In this document: positions 7,637 to 22,202 of the stretch, piece after piece
How positions within the stretch are numbered: position 1 is the first letter of the stretch
How the letters are laid out: every line of letters starts with the position of its first letter
DNA from: Streptomyces flavofungini
GTDB lineage: Bacteria > Actinomycetota > Actinomycetes > Streptomycetales > Streptomycetaceae
Direction of reading: 5' to 3'
NCBI RefSeq assembly: GCF_030388665.1
Contig: NZ_CP128846.1
Location: 7,536,001-7,600,000, forward strand
DNA: 64,000 bases
Notes under the pieces: generated by a model
Databases searched by the model: none
The model's input: only the letters and a program-made list of their open reading frames with translations
What the model was told of the DNA's origin: nothing
Translations under genes and position numbers: made by a program

Positions 7637-10168
7637 CTAGCCCGCGGCCGGGGCCTGGGGGCGAAGGAGCGTGCGCAGGCGCGTTGTGCGCTCCTTGGCG
7701 GGGCGCTCGGCGACCGCCTGGGGCAGGGCCTGGGCGACGCCCTGGACGACCGAGAGGTGGCGCTCGGCGCGGCTGAAGGCCGTGTACACCCACGGCCGGG
7801 TCAGGGCGCCCGCGGCGTCGCCCGGCAGGACGACGACGGCCGCGGGCCAGCGGCGCCCCGCGGCCTGGTGCGCGGTGAGCGCCCAGGCGTGCCGCACGGA
7901 CTGCTCCACCCGCTCCTTCGGCACGGCGACAGGGGTGCCCTCGCACTCCAGGCGCAGGCCCTGCGCGTCGGCGCCGACCACCCGGCCGAGCACCGTGCGG
8001 CCAGGCGTCGGGGCGTAGGCGACCCGGTCTCCGGGGTCGAAGCCGCCGAACCGGCCGGGGCCCGGGTTCAGCCGCTCCTTCAGTGCCGCGTTCAGCGCGC
8101 GCGTACCCGCCGCGCCGCCGTGGCCCGGCGTGATCACCTGCGTCTGTCCCGCCGGTACCCCGATGGCGCGCGGCACCGAGTCCGCGACCAGCTGCACCGT
8201 GCGGTGGATCGCGTCGGGCGCGTCCCGCACGGGGACGATCACGACCTCCTTGCCGGGTGCCTCGACCTGGGTCAGCTCACCGACGCCGATGCTGGAGACC
8301 AGCTCCCCGATGGGGCCGGGGTCCGGCGTGCGCGAGACGACCTGCGGGCAGCAGCGGGCCGCGAGCAGGTCCGCGAACACCCGGCCGGGGCCCGCGGACC
8401 ACAGCACTCCCGAGTCCCCGCTGAGCACGAGCCGGGCGCCGTCCGGAAGCGACTCCACGAGCATCGCGGCCGTCTCCACGTCCAGCTGCGGGGCGTCCAG
8501 GACCACGAGCAGGTCCAGGGACAGCGCGCCGTCCGCGTCGCGGCCAGGGCCCTGCCGCCCGGAGAGGAGACCGGCCACGGTCACGGCGACACCTTTGTCC
8601 GGGCCCCCGTCCAGCCCCTCGGCCAGCCTCCGCTGTCCCTCCGCGCTGTGCGTCGCCGCGCACACCCGCAGGCCCAGCGTCCGGGCCGCCGCCACCAGCG
8701 CGGCGGGCTCGGCGCGGGCCGCGTCGCCGCCCGTGTGCAGCACGAGGCCGTGCGTGGCCACGGCGCGGATCAGGTCGGCTGCGGACCCCTTGGCGGCGGC
8801 CGCCGCGGACTCCCAGTCGGCGGTGGCCGGGGGACGTGAGCGCTCACCGTCGCTCCCCGAGCCGCCGGGAGTCACGGTGTCGGGAGCCGCAGTGTCGGGA
8901 TCCGCGCCGTCGGGATCCGCCCCCTGGTCCGCCGGAGCCGAGCCGTCGCCCTCCGGGCCCGAACCCCCCTCCTTCGGCAGCGAGTTCATGACCCGGGCGA
9001 GGCCGTCGGCCAGGCTCTCCTCCGCGAGGGCGTACCGCTCGAGGCCGAGCAGTACGCGGACCGGCGTCGCTGCCTCCGCGTCCCCGGTGCCGTCGGCGCC
9101 GTCGGTGTCGTCTCCGGGCGGGGCGGGGCGCACCGGAGCCGCCCCGGGGACCTCCTCCAGCGCGTCCTGGAAGACCAGCACGTCGCCCTCCGCGAGGGCG
9201 GACTGCACGGCCTCGGCCGGGTCCGGCACCCCGCGCTGCGCCAGCGCCGCGGTGAGTGCCGACGACTCGAGCGCCGTGTGCCCGGCGAGCGCGGCCTGTT
9301 CGAGCAGCCACACCGTCAGCGCGCAGCCCCTGCGTTCGTCGCCAGGACCGCAGTCCGGGCCGAGGAGCGCCCGCGCGAACCCGTCGGCCTGCTCCGGCCG
9401 CACCCCGGCGACCCGCAGCAACTGCCAGGGGTCGGCACGCAGCACCCCGTCCGCGCCCTCGCCGAGCACGGCCGCCGCCCGGGCCGCGAGCGCCGCGGGC
9501 GCACCGCCGTCGGCCAGCACCGCCGCCACCGCCTCGACCGTCTCCGGCGCGGGCTCGGCCGCCACGGCCGGGGCCTCGGCCGCCGGCCGCCGCAGGGGCT
9601 CGGGGGCGGTCCGCTGCGGCGCGACCGGCGCGGGCTCGCGGAACGCGGACGCGACGGGCTTCTCGCCGCTCTCCACGGCCCGCACCGCCGCCAGCAGGTC
9701 GGCCGCCGTGCCCTTGAGCTTCGCGCCCGCCGCCACGGGCCCGTCCTTGCTGGCCTTGCGCTGCTCGATCCGCTCCCGCAGCTCCCGCTGTGCCGCGAGC
9801 TCGGCCTGGGCCTCGGACACCCCGGCGTCCTCGCCGTCCGCGCTGGTGTCCTTGCCCTCGCCGGCACCGGCCTCGGCACCGCTGTCCGGGGCGTTGCCCC
9901 CGGCCTCGGCAGCGCCCTCGGAAGCAGCCCCCTCCGGGGCGTCGTCCGGGCCGTCCGGGCCGTCCGGTTCACCCGTGCCGGTCGGGTCGGCCGCGTCCTC
10001 CAGGCCGTCCGGGCCCGCCGAGCCGTCCCCGGCGCCCCCGGCATCCCCCTCCGGCGCCCCGCCGTCCGGCGCGGCCCCGGCTTCCGGCGCGTCCTCGGCG
10101 GCGGGGCCCGATCCGGCTTCCGGGGCCTCGGGTTCGGCGACCTCCGCGGCAGCGGACTCCGTACTCAC
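7637..10168 (-). CDS. RecD2-like helicase homologue with degenerate ATPase motifs
   Basis: 843 aa. Residues 1-~130 are a disordered Ala/Gly/Glu/Asp/Pro tail. Residues ~200-330 hold helix-hairpin-helix-like repeats as in RecD2. Residues ~445-835 match the SF1B helicase core: LVLSGDSGVLWSAGPGRVFADL (motif III region), a RALNAALKERLNPG block, LTAHQAAG (motif V-like) and VYTAFSRAERHLSVV (motif VI). The Walker A position reads HTGGDAARAE instead of GGPGTGKT and Walker B reads LDAPQLD instead of DEA, so ATP hydrolysis is doubtful. GTG start at 10168 overlaps the upstream aldo/keto reductase stop by 4 bp, so the two are probably translationally coupled. Confidence 0.8.
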   Translation of the reverse strand: MSTESAAAEVAEPEAPEAGSGPAAEDAPEAGAAPDGGAPEGDAGGAGDGSAGPDGLEDAADPTGTGEPDGPDGPDDAPEGAASEGAAEAGGNAPDSGAEAGAGEGKDTSADGEDAGVSEAQAELAAQRELRERIEQRKASKDGPVAAGAKLKGTAADLLAAVRAVESGEKPVASAFREPAPVAPQRTAPEPLRRPAAEAPAVAAEPAPETVEAVAAVLADGGAPAALAARAAAVLGEGADGVLRADPWQLLRVAGVRPEQADGFARALLGPDCGPGDERRGCALTVWLLEQAALAGHTALESSALTAALAQRGVPDPAEAVQSALAEGDVLVFQDALEEVPGAAPVRPAPPGDDTDGADGTGDAEAATPVRVLLGLERYALAEESLADGLARVMNSLPKEGGSGPEGDGSAPADQGADPDGADPDTAAPDTVTPGGSGSDGERSRPPATADWESAAAAAKGSAADLIRAVATHGLVLHTGGDAARAEPAALVAAARTLGLRVCAATHSAEGQRRLAEGLDGGPDKGVAVTVAGLLSGRQGPGRDADGALSLDLLVVLDAPQLDVETAAMLVESLPDGARLVLSGDSGVLWSAGPGRVFADLLAARCCPQVVSRTPDPGPIGELVSSIGVGELTQVEAPGKEVVIVPVRDAPDAIHRTVQLVADSVPRAIGVPAGQTQVITPGHGGAAGTRALNAALKERLNPGPGRFGGFDPGDRVAYAPTPGRTVLGRVVGADAQGLRLECEGTPVAVPKERVEQSVRHAWALTAHQAAGRRWPAAVVVLPGDAAGALTRPWVYTAFSRAERHLSVVQGVAQALPQAVAERPAKERTTRLRTLLRPQAPAAG

Positions 10169-16928: not shown

Positions 16929-18158
16929 ATGTATGCCTGGCCCGCTTCTGAGGTTCCCGCCCTGCCCGGCAAGGGCCGCGACCTCCGGATCCACGACACC
17001 GCGACCGGTGGCCTCGTCACCCTCGACCCCGGTCCCGTCGCCCGTATCTACGTCTGCGGCATCACGCCGTACGACGCGACCCACATGGGTCACGCGGCGA
17101 CCTACAACGCGTTCGACCTCGTGCAGCGCGTGTGGCTCGACACCAAGCGGCAGGTCCACTACGTGCAGAACGTGACCGACGTGGACGACCCGCTCCTGGA
17201 GCGCGCCAAGCGCGACGGCAAGGACTGGGTCGAACTGGCGCAGGGCGAGACCGCGCTGTTCCGCGAGGACATGACCGCGCTTCGGCTGCTGCCGCCGCGG
17301 CACTACGTCGGAGCCGTCGAGTCGATACCGGGCATCGTGCCGCTGGTCGAGCGGCTGCGGGACCTGGGCGCCGCCTACGACCTCGAGGGCGACATCTACT
17401 TCTCCGTCGAGTCCGACCCGCACTTCGGCGAGGTGTCGGGGCTCGACGCCGCCGCCATGCGCCTGCTGTCCGCCGAGCGCGGCGGCGACCCGGACCGCGC
17501 GGGCAAGAAGAACCCGCTCGACCCGATGCTCTGGATGGCCGCCCGCGACGGCGAGCCGAGCTGGGACGGCGGCTCCCTCGGCCCCGGCCGCCCCGGCTGG
17601 CACATCGAGTGCGTCGCCATCGCCCTCGACCACCTCGGCATGGGCTTCGACATCCAGGGCGGCGGCTCCGACCTGGCCTTCCCGCACCACGAGATGGGCG
17701 CGTCGCACGCGCAGGCGCTGACCGGCGAGCACCCCTTCGCCAAGGCGTACGTGCACGCCGGCATGGTCGCCCTCGACGGCGCCAAGATGTCCAAGTCCAA
17801 GGGCAATCTGGTCTTCGTCTCCCGGCTGCGGCGCGATGGCGTCGACCCCGCCGCCATCCGGCTCGCCCTGCTCGCCCACCACTACCGCGCCGACTGGGAG
17901 TGGACCGACCAGGTGCTCCAGGACGCCGTCGCGCGGCTCGCCCGCTGGCGCGCCGCGGTGTCCCGCCCCGACGGACCGCCCGCCGAGGCCCTGGTCGAGG
18001 AGGTGCGCGAGGCCCTGGCCAACGACCTGGACGCGCCCGCCGCGCTCGCCGCCGTCGACCGCTGGGCCGCCCGTCAGGACGCCGAGGGCGGCACGGACGA
18101 GGGCGCCCCCGGCGTCGTGTCCCGCGCGGTGGACGCACTGCTGGGCGTCGCCCTGTAG
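16929..18158 (+). CDS. mshC: Mycothiol ligase MshC (Cys:GlcN-Ins ligase)
   Basis: 409 aa. Joins cysteine to the glucosaminyl-inositol precursor using ATP, the fourth step of mycothiol synthesis. It derives from class I cysteinyl-tRNA synthetase: zinc-binding Cys43 in YVCGITPYD, the HIGH-like HMGH at 52-55, WHIECVA (zinc Cys), FPHHEMG, and KMSKS at 286-290. It is shorter than CysS and lacks the tRNA-binding C-terminus, which separates the two. Cytosolic. It sits after the phosphomutase/DUF3090/kinase trio and converges on the Gln-rich gene across a strong hairpin. Confidence 0.96.
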
Positions 18159-18232: not shown

Positions 18233-18925
18233 TCACCGGGTGATCACGATCGCGAGCAGCAGCCCGGGGTTGTTCGTGTCGTAGTAGCCGATCACCGGCT
18301 GCCCGTACGCGAAGGCTTCCTGGACCTGGTCGCGGGTGCGGTCGTCGGGGTTCACGTAGACGCGCCACTCGCCGTCCACGTGCAGGTACAGCAGTGAGGC
18401 CTGGCCCGGGAGCGGCTGGACGACGTCCCAGAAGCTCTGGGCGACGGCACCCGCGAGGGCCTGCGTCGAGATCGCGGGCGCCTGCGCCTGCGGGACCTGC
18501 TGCTGGCCGAGCTGCTGCAGCAGTTGCTGGAACGGCTGCTGCTGGCCGAGCTGTTGCATCTGCTGGCGCAGGTGCTGCGGGATCTGCTGCTGCATCTGCT
18601 GGGGGAACTGCTGCTGGCCGGGGATCTGCTGCCCGTACTGGCGCTGCTGGCCGATCTGGCCCTGCTGGCCGATCTGACCCTGCTGACCGATCTGGCCCTG
18701 CTGGCCGATCTGACCGATCTGGCCGGGCTGCGGCGGCGCGGTGCTCGGGCCCTGCTGGCCGTGCTGCTGCTGGCCGTACTGCTGGCCGTACTGCTGGCCG
18801 AACGGCTGCTGCTGGCCGAGCTGTTCGGGGCCGTAGCTCTGCTGCCCCTGCTGCCCGAACTGCTGTGGGCCGTACTGCTGGCCCTGCTGCTGGCCCAGTT
18901 GACTCATTTGCGGGATGGTGCTCAT
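18233..18925 (-). CDS. Gln-rich protein with a C-terminal module shared with the neighbouring peptidase
   Basis: 230 aa, cytosolic, unrecognised. Residues 1-~145 are a low-complexity tail of Gln/Gly/Pro/Tyr (GQQ, QYGQQ and repeated GQIGQQ), likely disordered and possibly self-associating. The last ~70 residues look folded. The final ~50 (LHVDGEWRVYVNP then TRDQVQEAFA and AIVITR) align with the last ~50 of the S8 peptidase encoded just upstream on the same strand. ATG at 18925 (MSTIPQMSQLG) is used, with AAGGTGA upstream. From memory this gene and the peptidase are absent between mshC and the PAC2 gene in S. coelicolor, so they may be an insertion. Confidence 0.75.
   Translation of the reverse strand: MSTIPQMSQLGQQQGQQYGPQQFGQQGQQSYGPEQLGQQQPFGQQYGQQYGQQQHGQQGPSTAPPQPGQIGQIGQQGQIGQQGQIGQQGQIGQQRQYGQQIPGQQQFPQQMQQQIPQHLRQQMQQLGQQQPFQQLLQQLGQQQVPQAQAPAISTQALAGAVAQSFWDVVQPLPGQASLLYLHVDGEWRVYVNPDDRTRDQVQEAFAYGQPVIGYYDTNNPGLLLAIVITR
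18647..18724 (-). repeat. Degenerate 18-bp tandem repeats coding for GQIGQQ
   Basis: About four 18-bp units, differing at one or two bases, encode successive GQIGQQ hexapeptides within the Gln-rich tail. They suggest expansion by slippage. Confidence 0.65.
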
Positions 18926-18997
18926 GCGGGTGTCACCTTCCGTCAATGGTCGGTCCGTTGATGTGGTGCGGTGGTGCTTCTCGTCGCGTGCCGCGGT

Positions 18998-20752
18998 TCA
19001 GCCGGTGACGACCAGGCCGACGACCTCGTCGTCCGAGAACCAGACACGCACGTCCGGTGATTCCCCGGCGAAGGCGGAGTGCACCGCCTGGCGGGTCTCG
19101 GGGGAGGGGTTGTTCAGGTTCCGCCACTGCCCGGCCACGAAGAGCCTGAGGCGCGGCGGGAGTTCGGGCGGATACGGGATCAGCTCGTCCCAGTAGCGCT
19201 CGGCGAGGCCGGAGCCCACCCTCGCGGGAAGCAGCTTGGTGACCGCCGCCTTGATGTCGGGGCGGTTGCCGATCCGCTGGGACGCCGGGCGGCCGGGCCC
19301 GTCCTGCTGCGGCGACCCGGTGGCCCGCAGCACGGCGCGTGCGCGGGCGGACGTCATCGGTTGCTGGTCCGCAGCCTTGAGGACGCCCTGGAGCGCGGCG
19401 ACGGCGCCGACGACGATCGGGGACGCCGACGAGGTGCCGGAGAACGTGTCCGTGTACCAGGCGATCTCGTCCACGCCGCCCTGGAGGTCGCCCGGCTGGT
19501 TCCAGAAGCCGCCGGTCGTCGTGGTCTCACGGCCCCAGCCCTGCGCGTCCAGGCGCGCGCCGTAGTTGGAGAACCCCAGGCGCGAGCGGTCCGGGCCGTG
19601 GTCACGGCCGTGCGTGCCGGGGGGCGGCGCGCCCGCGCCGACCAGGACGGCCTCGGACGAGGGGTTGGACGGGTTGAAGGGGTTGCGCCACCAGGACGGG
19701 AACTCGTCCGGACGCCGCTCGTACACCGCGTCGTCCAGGGACTCCGCGCCGTTGCCCGCCGCGCCGACGACGACGATGCCCTTGGCCGTGGCGTAGCGGA
19801 CCGCGGCGAAGTCGTCCGGCCACCACTCGATGGCGATGTAGCCCTTCTGGTCGTCGCGGGCCTCGAAGTCGAACTTCGGGCCCGGGCGGTGCAGTTCTAT
19901 GAGGATGATGTCGCCCGGCGCGAGCCGGTCCGCCGCGGCGTGGATCGTCGCCGCCGTGCCCGCCGGGGTGAACGAGGCGACCGCGGTCACGGCGTCCGGC
20001 ACGATGCCGGTGACACCGATGGCGTTGCGGTCGGCGCCGATGACACCGATCACGGCCGTGCCGTGGTTGCGCCAGGCAAGGTCCTGGATGGGGGTGCCGA
20101 TCACCACGCCCGCGAGCTTCGCCGACAGGTCCTCGTGGCTCAGCTGCCAGGCGCCCTCGATGTCGATGACGGTCACCCCGTCACCGCCGCCGCCCAGGCG
20201 CTGCCAGGCCCAGTACGCGTCGACGCCCTCCGGCGCGGGGCGCAGATAGCCCTGGCGGCCGCTGAAGTCCGGCGTCGCCGGCATCCCCTCCTTGCGGCGC
20301 CGCTCCTCGTCCGGCTCGCTCGCGCCGACCTGCTGCCCGACGGGCCCGAGCGCGGCCGGCACGGCGCCCGGCTTCACGTACGCCGTCTCGATCCCGGGCA
20401 GCGCCGCCATCCGCGCGCGCAGCTCCTGGGCGCGATCCCCGCCCCCGCGCACCCGGTAGAACAGCGCCAGGTCGGGCACCTCGCCCTGGGCGTCGGGGGC
20501 CGCCGCCCGCAGCCGGTCCTCGCTGCCGAACAGCGGCTCCAGGGTGAGTTGTTCGTCGCTGAGGAACATGTTCAGGGCCGACACGTCGGAGCCCGACGCC
20601 GAGCGGACGCCCTGCTCCTGGGCACGCAGCCGGGCCTCCGGCCGGGCGACGACGATCAGTTCCGCATCGGCGGCCCGATACGTGAACCCCATTCCGTCGG
20701 GTCCGGGGCCACTGCCCCCGGGGTCGCTGCCCCGCTGCACCTGGTCGGTCAT
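18998..20752 (-). CDS. S8 (subtilisin-like) serine peptidase, intracellular
   Basis: 584 aa. The triad is intact: Asp197 (VTVIDIEG), His230 (RNHGTAVIG) and Ser441 (SGTSSASP), with oxyanion Asn334 in AAGN. Residues ~20-135 form an N-terminal domain (LALFYRVRGGG ... GIETAYVKPGA) that could act as an I9-like intramolecular inhibitor. There is no signal peptide, unusual for secreted subtilases, so action in the cytosol is likely. The C-terminal ~50 residues (LFVAGQWRNLNNP ... TRQAVHSAFA ... GLVVTG) match the C-terminus of the downstream Gln-rich protein. The two genes are on the same strand, 72 bp apart. Target unknown; processing or co-recruitment with the Gln-rich partner is inferred. Confidence 0.85.
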   Translation of the reverse strand: MTDQVQRGSDPGGSGPGPDGMGFTYRAADAELIVVARPEARLRAQEQGVRSASGSDVSALNMFLSDEQLTLEPLFGSEDRLRAAAPDAQGEVPDLALFYRVRGGGDRAQELRARMAALPGIETAYVKPGAVPAALGPVGQQVGASEPDEERRRKEGMPATPDFSGRQGYLRPAPEGVDAYWAWQRLGGGGDGVTVIDIEGAWQLSHEDLSAKLAGVVIGTPIQDLAWRNHGTAVIGVIGADRNAIGVTGIVPDAVTAVASFTPAGTAATIHAAADRLAPGDIILIELHRPGPKFDFEARDDQKGYIAIEWWPDDFAAVRYATAKGIVVVGAAGNGAESLDDAVYERRPDEFPSWWRNPFNPSNPSSEAVLVGAGAPPPGTHGRDHGPDRSRLGFSNYGARLDAQGWGRETTTTGGFWNQPGDLQGGVDEIAWYTDTFSGTSSASPIVVGAVAALQGVLKAADQQPMTSARARAVLRATGSPQQDGPGRPASQRIGNRPDIKAAVTKLLPARVGSGLAERYWDELIPYPPELPPRLRLFVAGQWRNLNNPSPETRQAVHSAFAGESPDVRVWFSDDEVVGLVVTG

Positions 20753-21023: not shown

Positions 21024-22202
21024 TCAGTCCTCGGAGGAATCCTCTGACGAGGAATCGTCTTCCTTGGCGCGGCCGGGCTTCTCGCGGCGGCCCTCGCTCC
21101 GCCCGCCGTCATCCGTGCCGCCGCCGGAGCCACTGGATTTCGTGGATTCGGCGGTGTCGGATTCCTGGCTTGACTCGGCCGGTTCGCCCTTGGCGTCCGC
21201 CGCGGGCTCCGGGCGCGGCTGCGGCTTCGGCGGCCGCGTGCGCTCGCTCGGCGTGTCCCGCAGGTACGCCGCCCCGTCGCCGCCGTCCGTGGCGTGCCCG
21301 CCGACCTGCCCGGTCCCGCCGACCTGCCCGGTCCCGGCGACGGGACCGGGGCCGGGGCCGCCGCCGTCGCGCCGCCGCAGATACCGCTCGAACTCCCGTG
21401 CGATGGCCTCGCCGGACGCCTCGGGCAGCTCCGCGGTGTCCCGTGCCTCCTCCAGGGACTGGACGTACTCGGCGACCTCGCTGTCCTCGGCGGCGAGCTG
21501 GTCGACGCCCAGCTGCCAGGCGCGCGCGTCCTCCGTCAGCTCACCGAGGGGGATCCTGAGGTCGATCAGGTCCTCCAGGCGGTTGAGGAGGGCGAGCGTC
21601 GCCTTCGGGTTCGGCGGCTGCGAGACGTAGTGCGGGACGGCCGCCCACAGGCTGACCGCGGGGACGCCCGCGTGCGTGCACGCCTCCTGGAGGATGCCGA
21701 CGATGCCCGTCGGGCCCTCGTACTTGGTCTCCTCCAGGTCCATGGTGCGCGCCAGGTCCGGGTCGGACGTGACGCCGCTGACCGGGACCGGGCGGGTGTG
21801 CGGGGTGTCGCCGAGCAGCGCACCCATGATCACGACCAGCTCCACGCCCAGCTCGTGGGCGAAGCCGAGCAGCTCGTTGCAGAACGAACGCCAGCGCATG
21901 GACGGCTCTATGCCCCGCACCAGGACGAGGTCGCGCGGCTTGTCGCCGCCGACGCGGACCACCGAGAGCCGGGTCGTCGGCCACGTGATCTTGCGCACTC
22001 CGCCGTCCAGCCACACCGTGGGCCGGTTGACCTGGAAGTCGTAGTAGTCCTCGGCGTCCAGCGCCGCGAACACCTCGCCCTTCCACTCCTTGTCGAGATG
22101 CGCGACCGCGGTGGAGGCGGCGTCGCCGGCGTCGTTCCAGCCCTCGAACGCGGCCACCATGACCGGGTCGATCAGCTCGGGTACCCCCTCGAGCTCGATC
22201 AC
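21024..22202 (-). CDS. parJ: PAC2 family protein (ParJ/ASP2 type)
   Basis: 392 aa. Residues 1-~285 are a PAC2/DUF75 domain (start MIELEGVPELIDPVMVAAFEGWNDAGDAA; VVIMGALLGDTPHTRPVP; GPTGIVGILQEA). The tail (~290-392) is low-complexity Gly/Pro/Ser with an acidic end (DDSSSEDSSED). The family is named for eukaryotic proteasome assembly chaperone 2 and is an actinobacterial signature. From memory, S. coelicolor SCO1662 (ParJ) is this type and tunes ParA polymerisation during sporulation septation; the symbol rests on that recollection and synteny next to glpD/mshC. GGAAGGAGG precedes the GTG start by 5 nt. Confidence 0.8.
   Translation of the reverse strand: MIELEGVPELIDPVMVAAFEGWNDAGDAASTAVAHLDKEWKGEVFAALDAEDYYDFQVNRPTVWLDGGVRKITWPTTRLSVVRVGGDKPRDLVLVRGIEPSMRWRSFCNELLGFAHELGVELVVIMGALLGDTPHTRPVPVSGVTSDPDLARTMDLEETKYEGPTGIVGILQEACTHAGVPAVSLWAAVPHYVSQPPNPKATLALLNRLEDLIDLRIPLGELTEDARAWQLGVDQLAAEDSEVAEYVQSLEEARDTAELPEASGEAIAREFERYLRRRDGGGPGPGPVAGTGQVGGTGQVGGHATDGGDGAAYLRDTPSERTRPPKPQPRPEPAADAKGEPAESSQESDTAESTKSSGSGGGTDDGGRSEGRREKPGRAKEDDSSSEDSSED

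Follow-up and report, generated by a model that had tools for sequence, protein, structure and literature searches.

An apparently leaderless subtilase and its glutamine-rich neighbour in Streptomyces flavofungini share a C-terminal module: a possible variant of matched-module operons

In a 64,000-nucleotide (nt) stretch of Streptomyces flavofungini DNA (the window; positions 7,536,001 to 7,600,000 of the forward strand of contig NZ_CP128846.1, assembly GCF_030388665.1), a family S8 (subtilase) peptidase and the glutamine (Gln)-rich protein encoded by the next gene were found to carry a common C-terminal module of 64–75 residues. The arrangement of an enzyme-borne C-terminal module followed by a free copy of that module in the next gene recurred elsewhere with a second, unrelated module. 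The best explanation is that the window pair represents one variant of a matched-module operon. Tentatively, and at somewhat less than an even chance, we propose that such operons form an undescribed bacterial and archaeal class, composed of a leaderless hydrolase, free copies of its N-domain and C-module, and a disordered chain with a repeated motif. The free parts would set the dose, inhibition and recruitment of the enzyme in a mixed assembly, and the matching of fused and free modules would have been conserved while the module itself was exchanged (a beta-sandwich for an OB-like fold) in the Streptomyces line, the enzyme core being kept.

The module common to the peptidase and its neighbour

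The peptidase gene (18998..20752, minus strand) encodes 584 residues, of which approximately residues 510–584 constitute the enzyme-borne module (19001..19225, minus strand). The free-module gene (18233..18925, minus strand; the likeliest start is the ATG at 18925) encodes 230 residues, with a Gln-rich N-terminal tail followed by the free module (residues 155–230; 18236..18463, minus strand). The two open reading frames (ORFs) lie 72 nt apart on the same strand, as the first-pass annotation of this DNA had it, and from this gap we infer that they are co-transcribed.

When the two proteins were compared by BLASTP, they matched with an E-value of 3e-7. With the free module as query, the whole 9.4 Mb genome yielded the C-terminus of the peptidase (E 1.1e-5), the sole other row having an E-value of 0.36. 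A profile of 28 free modules matched a profile of 16 peptidase C-termini with a probability of 98.2% and an E-value of 2.7e-14 over 64 columns, values that place the match far beyond chance. The shared module proposed by the first-pass annotation is thus real and somewhat longer than the ~50 residues claimed, and the comparison of profiles that it had suggested as a check gave a significant result. The Pfam scan returned nothing significant for the module, and the only significant match in the peptidase was to S8 (PF00082, E 4.6e-11).

The free and fused modules are 26–35% identical to each other. Column conservation in an alignment of 48 rows was 0.91 for the enzyme-borne module versus 0.89 for the catalytic domain (approximately residues 161–500; 19253..20272, minus strand; boundaries approximate). 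The ratio of nonsynonymous to synonymous substitution rates (dN/dS) was below 1 in all six hand-picked pairs of free modules (0.03–0.77) and in all four hand-picked pairs of fused modules (0.10–0.35). The model of the window-type module showed the secondary structure E-E-E-H-E-E. An OB-fold is a five-stranded barrel with a helix between strands 3 and 4, and the list of structures matching the model was headed by chains that we take to be OB-folds, but Z did not exceed 6.9. The window-type module is predicted to be OB-fold-like.

The catalytic residues of the peptidase, D197, H230 and S441, occur in the expected order, with N334 as the oxyanion residue. D197 was kept in 46, H230 in 47 and S441 in 46 of the 48 aligned rows, the exceptions being L064 and two fragments. 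By its subtilase profile and ordered Asp-His-Ser triad, the enzyme is assigned to family S8. No hydrophobic leader was visible when the peptidase sequence was judged by eye, and both the intact triad and the lack of a signal peptide agree with what had been read at first. The N-terminal part contains a prodomain-like domain (approximately residues 30–131; 20360..20665, minus strand; the domain start is an estimate), in which residues 81–131 matched a hidden Markov model of free upstream copies from the related operons described below (sequence E 4.7e-8). An identity as a type VII secretion mycosin was rejected (TIGR03921, 27 bits versus a cut-off of 278.75), and matches to mycosins or cyanobactin proteases in general were weak and far below the cut-offs. 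PADLOC identified no anti-phage defence family in either the peptidase or the Gln-rich protein.

The Gln-rich tail (18464..18925, minus strand; 44% Gln) is presumably disordered. The first-pass annotation had rightly noted a Gln/Gly-rich tail in the partner protein, although the tail is positioned N-terminal to the module. We collected 44 distinct free proteins, three of them from outside the set of 295 Streptomyces genomes surveyed below; the tails of 43 were 83–156 residues long and contained 34–49% Gln, and the remaining row (L053) was a mis-picked start. A motif within the tail, LGQQQP[FY]QQLLQQLG, is nearly fixed and reads QQLGQQQPFQQLLQQLG in the window protein (18506..18556, minus strand). 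The pattern P[FYH]x1-2L[LMI]xx[LFM] was present in 32 of 34 composition-filtered tails, and the other two carried a near variant of the motif.

Occurrence and insertion site of the pair in Streptomyces

The peptidase was searched for in 295 Streptomyces genomes (four candidates scored per genome) and found in 49; one of these, G227, has only a distant relative that lacks the module, and the window-type peptidase was accordingly present in 48. Matches to the free module were likewise obtained in 48 genomes, 43 of which hold a free copy, in every case on the contig of the peptidase and within ~1 kb of it. Four of the other five showed only the peptidase's own module and the fifth, G069, a weak match elsewhere. 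This match (E 0.0028) was rejected as a free copy, as its ORF reads like an alpha/beta hydrolase and the fetched locus contained no match to the peptidase; it was treated as a chance match, outside the 43. Regarding the co-occurrence raised by the first-pass annotation, the free-module gene was never found without the peptidase among the 295 genomes, and the peptidase had the free gene beside it in 43 of 48.

Of the five peptidases lacking a partner, three look damaged: G018 has Ala in place of the catalytic Asp, the module is apparently out of frame in G258, and G168 has a contig-end fragment together with a short remnant ORF. The G168 ORF (L067:4197-4595), located at the site described in the next paragraph, joins residues resembling the start of the peptidase to its C-terminal module, apparently through an internal deletion. 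In a profile search of 396 Actinomycetota genomes from 236 genera, the window-type module was found in three, all of them Streptomyces (the scoring covered 14 candidates per genome, so that remote copies could escape).

The pair is flanked by a PAC2-family gene at the upstream edge (21024..22202, minus strand; PF09754, E 2.8e-64) and by the convergent mshC at the downstream edge (16929..18158, plus strand; TIGR03447, E 2.4e-204, 678.8 bits versus a cut-off of 485.1). The order PAC2, peptidase, free module, mshC was seen in 13 pair-bearing loci showing both flanks; at least L107 has extra ORFs between PAC2 and mshC, and L074 is truncated by the end of its contig. Among 14 genomes without the peptidase, 11 had PAC2 and mshC ~1.5 kb or less apart and nothing of the pair between them, which bears out the earlier suggestion of an inserted two-gene module; the flank fetched from the other three did not contain mshC. 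Neither PAC2 nor mshC was found within the fetched 11–12 kb around the divergent window-type peptidases of G018 and G258. In S. coelicolor, as given in passages of PMC4255298, mshC is SCO1663, and SCO1662 is ParJ, which is structurally related to PAC2 proteins. The window PAC2 gene may be the ParJ orthologue, and if so, the adjacent numbers agree with the statement in the first-pass annotation that the pair is absent from between mshC and PAC2 in S. coelicolor.

Relatives of the peptidase were also seen in other settings. The G227 enzyme without the module (L069:6399-8535) has a ricin-B-like trefoil protein as its downstream neighbour, possibly a partner of another kind. At L108–L119, in two other actinobacterial families (f17 and f19), the core of the peptidase has relatives that differ in their C-terminal part and, by eye, seem to start with a signal peptide.

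The same arrangement with an unrelated module

The genome G280 contains a second peptidase, with a core ~51–55% identical and a quite different C-terminal module, and the next small ORF is 53% identical to this module over 86 residues. G634 has the same type of module (hereafter beta-type) and a free copy arranged as in G280. In G304 (L120:4976-8377), an 899-residue leaderless propeller of the BNR/sortilin type ends in the beta-type module and is followed by a free copy (L120:7676-7945) and a small acidic ORF (7949-8377). The beta-type module is all-beta and unrelated to the window-type module. Comparison of the window-type (A3) and beta-type (A1) profiles gave a probability of 0.4%, and the idea that the two are one family was rejected, as the sequences do not match and the predicted secondary structures differ. 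The window pair has the same arrangement without the beta-type module itself, for which no convincing match was found in the window's genome (best E 0.01, partial).

A scan of 84,980 species, one genome per species, with the A1 alignment returned 89 relatives, of which 80 were kept in 79 loci from many phyla. Of these loci, 67 contain two copies of the module, one terminating a larger ORF and the other free, ~84 residues long and beginning −3 to 402 nt after the larger ORF (rule-picked starts). In two of the 67 (L141 and L146) the larger ORF was seen as a short piece only. The figure of 67 is not a count of independent events, as it includes near-duplicate loci (e.g., the Lentzea and Zobellia sets); because the loci were drawn by the module itself, the proportion applies to loci with a recognizable module and not to all such enzymes. 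The larger ORFs encode S8, M12A and M64 peptidases, a protein glutaminase and BNR propellers (Pfam at E 1e-4 across the 79 loci: S8, 41; Sortilin/BNR, 16; astacin, 11; M64, 3; glutaminase, 1), and in a crude leader test none of the 79 exceeded the cut-off for a hydrophobic leader. The proposed class includes archaea because plasmid pHME505 of Haloferax mediterranei encodes an S8 peptidase ending in the beta-type module (L222:4208-6255), followed by a free copy annotated as a hypothetical protein. The module was absent from 50,697 phage records and present in one of 72,556 plasmid records, so it is not evidently a phage or plasmid element.

Further free parts were observed at the beta-type loci. 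A small ORF related to the N-domain of the peptidase lies upstream in 32 of the 79 loci (25 from the first round and 7 from the second), all of them among the 40 whose larger ORF matches the window S8 core; this was the only lead taken from a rough clustering of neighbours in which antisense-shadow ORFs and close relatives predominated. A prodomain-like relative of the N-domain also immediately precedes the enzyme at L070:5137-5514. Downstream of the free module, 45 of 79 loci (41 of 78 by a stricter pattern) encode a small protein with an MRIIIE-like start and repeated D-[AG]-G motifs of the DAGxPP type, in which no Pfam family was found (two examples scanned). The pattern P-x(1-3)-[LW]-[LIV]-x-x-[LIVM] was present in 30 of these 45 proteins, whereas 300 shuffles gave 1.2 on average and 5 at most, a comparison that is descriptive, as the pattern was picked after viewing the sequences and some rows are close relatives. 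The fixed motif of the window Gln-rich tail fits this pattern, and our guess is that the Streptomyces type has its motif-bearing chain and its free module fused in one protein.

A tree of the S8 enzymes, built from 55 of 96 collected rows (the rest failed the length and E-value filter or were other enzymes), placed the window clade (9 rows, 100/100) among the beta-module peptidases.

Possible modes of action and related systems

In a matched-module operon, a leaderless enzyme ends in a small folded module, and the next gene supplies free copies of that module. In the mechanism that we propose, the free and enzyme-borne modules would bind each other, as a dimer or a ring, and a few enzyme molecules would be incorporated into an assembly in which free modules predominate. 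The scaffold holding the protease in the window would be the Gln-rich chain, which has one conserved short motif, and it may either bring the protease to its targets or keep it in check. Direct binding into a mixed assembly is the simplest form of this idea; that the free copy binds the enzyme-borne module, and in the window tethers the protease to the Gln-rich chain, we consider about evenly balanced. Any action of the free copy is more likely exerted through the module than directed at the catalytic domain, given that one module accompanies different enzymes and that the free copy changes along with the module. The first-pass annotation had suggested that the shared domain may be a recruitment tag for a substrate or scaffold, and this suggestion gains weight because the matching of enzyme-borne and free copies is seen again with an unrelated module and in other families of enzyme. 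Nothing in the analysis suggests that the Gln-rich protein is a substrate of the protease.

Several observations weigh against the reading of matched-module operons. Two of the free-module dN/dS ratios are high (0.56 and 0.77), both of them from close pairs. The peptidases of G011 and G108 are full length and have kept the triad, and the free copy is nevertheless missing. A protein-database search listed 19 relatives of the free protein versus 366 of the peptidase C-terminus (the best 120 of the latter being listed), an imbalance that we think reflects a word- and length-limited search and a faster-changing free module. Twelve of the 79 beta-type loci have no intact free copy: it is interrupted in L140, only 310 nt containing the third gene are left in L165, and it is absent from the other ten, nine of which have the third small gene instead. 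Neither a separate third gene nor a free N-domain was found at the window locus. Finally, the forks that nest the window clade in the S8 tree were not starred (90/96 and 82/69), and the exchange of the module is therefore provisional.

It is also possible, though unlikely, that the free module is a decoy or brake, competing for a common partner or blocking dimerization of the enzyme and thereby limiting proteolysis; the free prodomain-like protein of the S8 operons would additionally inhibit the active site. Inhibition by free relatives of subtilisin propeptides, such as POIA1, is known, and the prodomain-like relatives directly upstream in 32 of the 79 beta-type loci, all with an S8 core, are in line with such a role. 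However, a decoy has no need for a Gln-rich tail bearing a conserved motif, the only loci at which the upstream domain was found were S8 loci, and the free module should be retained most strictly beside an intact peptidase, yet G011 and G108 do without it. We likewise regard it as unlikely that both copies of the module bind the same third structure (the wall, a membrane, the nucleoid or another protein) rather than each other, a reading that does not account for the free copy being the next gene and changing together with the module of the enzyme.

That the module is an export or maturation tag of leaderless enzymes and the free copy its chaperone or carrier appears improbable. Several of the enzyme families involved are usually secreted, and the outcome of the crude leader test as well as the signal or lipobox-like starts (by eye) of the upstream free N-domain in L133, L155, L157 and L158 would fit this explanation, but no transporter was prominent in the 25 largest neighbour clusters, a point that is weak in view of the rough clustering and dominant antisense shadows. 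Even less probable, and already disfavoured, is a by-product origin of the free gene as a drifting, partial tandem duplication of the 3′ end of the peptidase gene. The short ORF of G168 suggests that internal deletions occur at the site; yet 43 of 48 genomes have kept the free gene despite the low identity of the free and fused modules, and the dN/dS range and the recurrence of the arrangement with another module also speak against a by-product.

No description of either module was recognized in searches of the open-access literature. Passages of PMC7159879 and PMC8195603 describe effector-associated domains (EADs) and Death-like adaptors of bacterial conflict systems, in which one small domain is present both in the effector and in another product of its operon and is predicted to connect the two through homotypic contact; the passages also mention a fusion of EAD1 to a trypsin-like peptidase. 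By analogy, the closest logic to that of the window pair would be the one proposed for EADs, a domain common to effector and operon partner (passages of PMC7159879). The window pair resembles such systems in having the same small domain in the enzyme and its adjacent partner. Among the EAD models that Pfam includes, perhaps not a full set, the scan of the window module gave no match, only the S8 match being obtained in the peptidase, and PADLOC identified none. Unlike in EAD systems, the neighbours of the pair are PAC2 and mshC with no NTPase beside it, and the partner consists of a free module and a low-complexity chain. Subtilases of the Tk-SP type (PDB 3afg and 9ues) combine a prodomain with a C-terminal jelly-roll, whereas the window module is predicted to be OB-fold-like, the window peptidase has no visible leader, and its accessory domain has a free copy in the next gene. 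The pentameric OB-fold B subunits of AB5 proteins show at most ~15% identity to the window module, a match below the reliable level that serves as a fold analogy only; unlike these subunits, the window module has no leader and is also fused to an enzyme.

If the reading of matched-module operons is correct, many pairs annotated as ‘S8 family peptidase plus hypothetical protein’ would share one design for controlling leaderless hydrolases, to which similar pairs with an astacin, an M64 peptidase, a protein glutaminase or a propeller would also belong. The joint exchange of the module and its free copy would then be a natural experiment showing that the matching matters. The reading would also offer a route to assigning a function to many annotated unknowns, and the matching of enzyme-borne and free modules suggests a means, so far unstudied, by which enzymes may be tethered to a partner protein.
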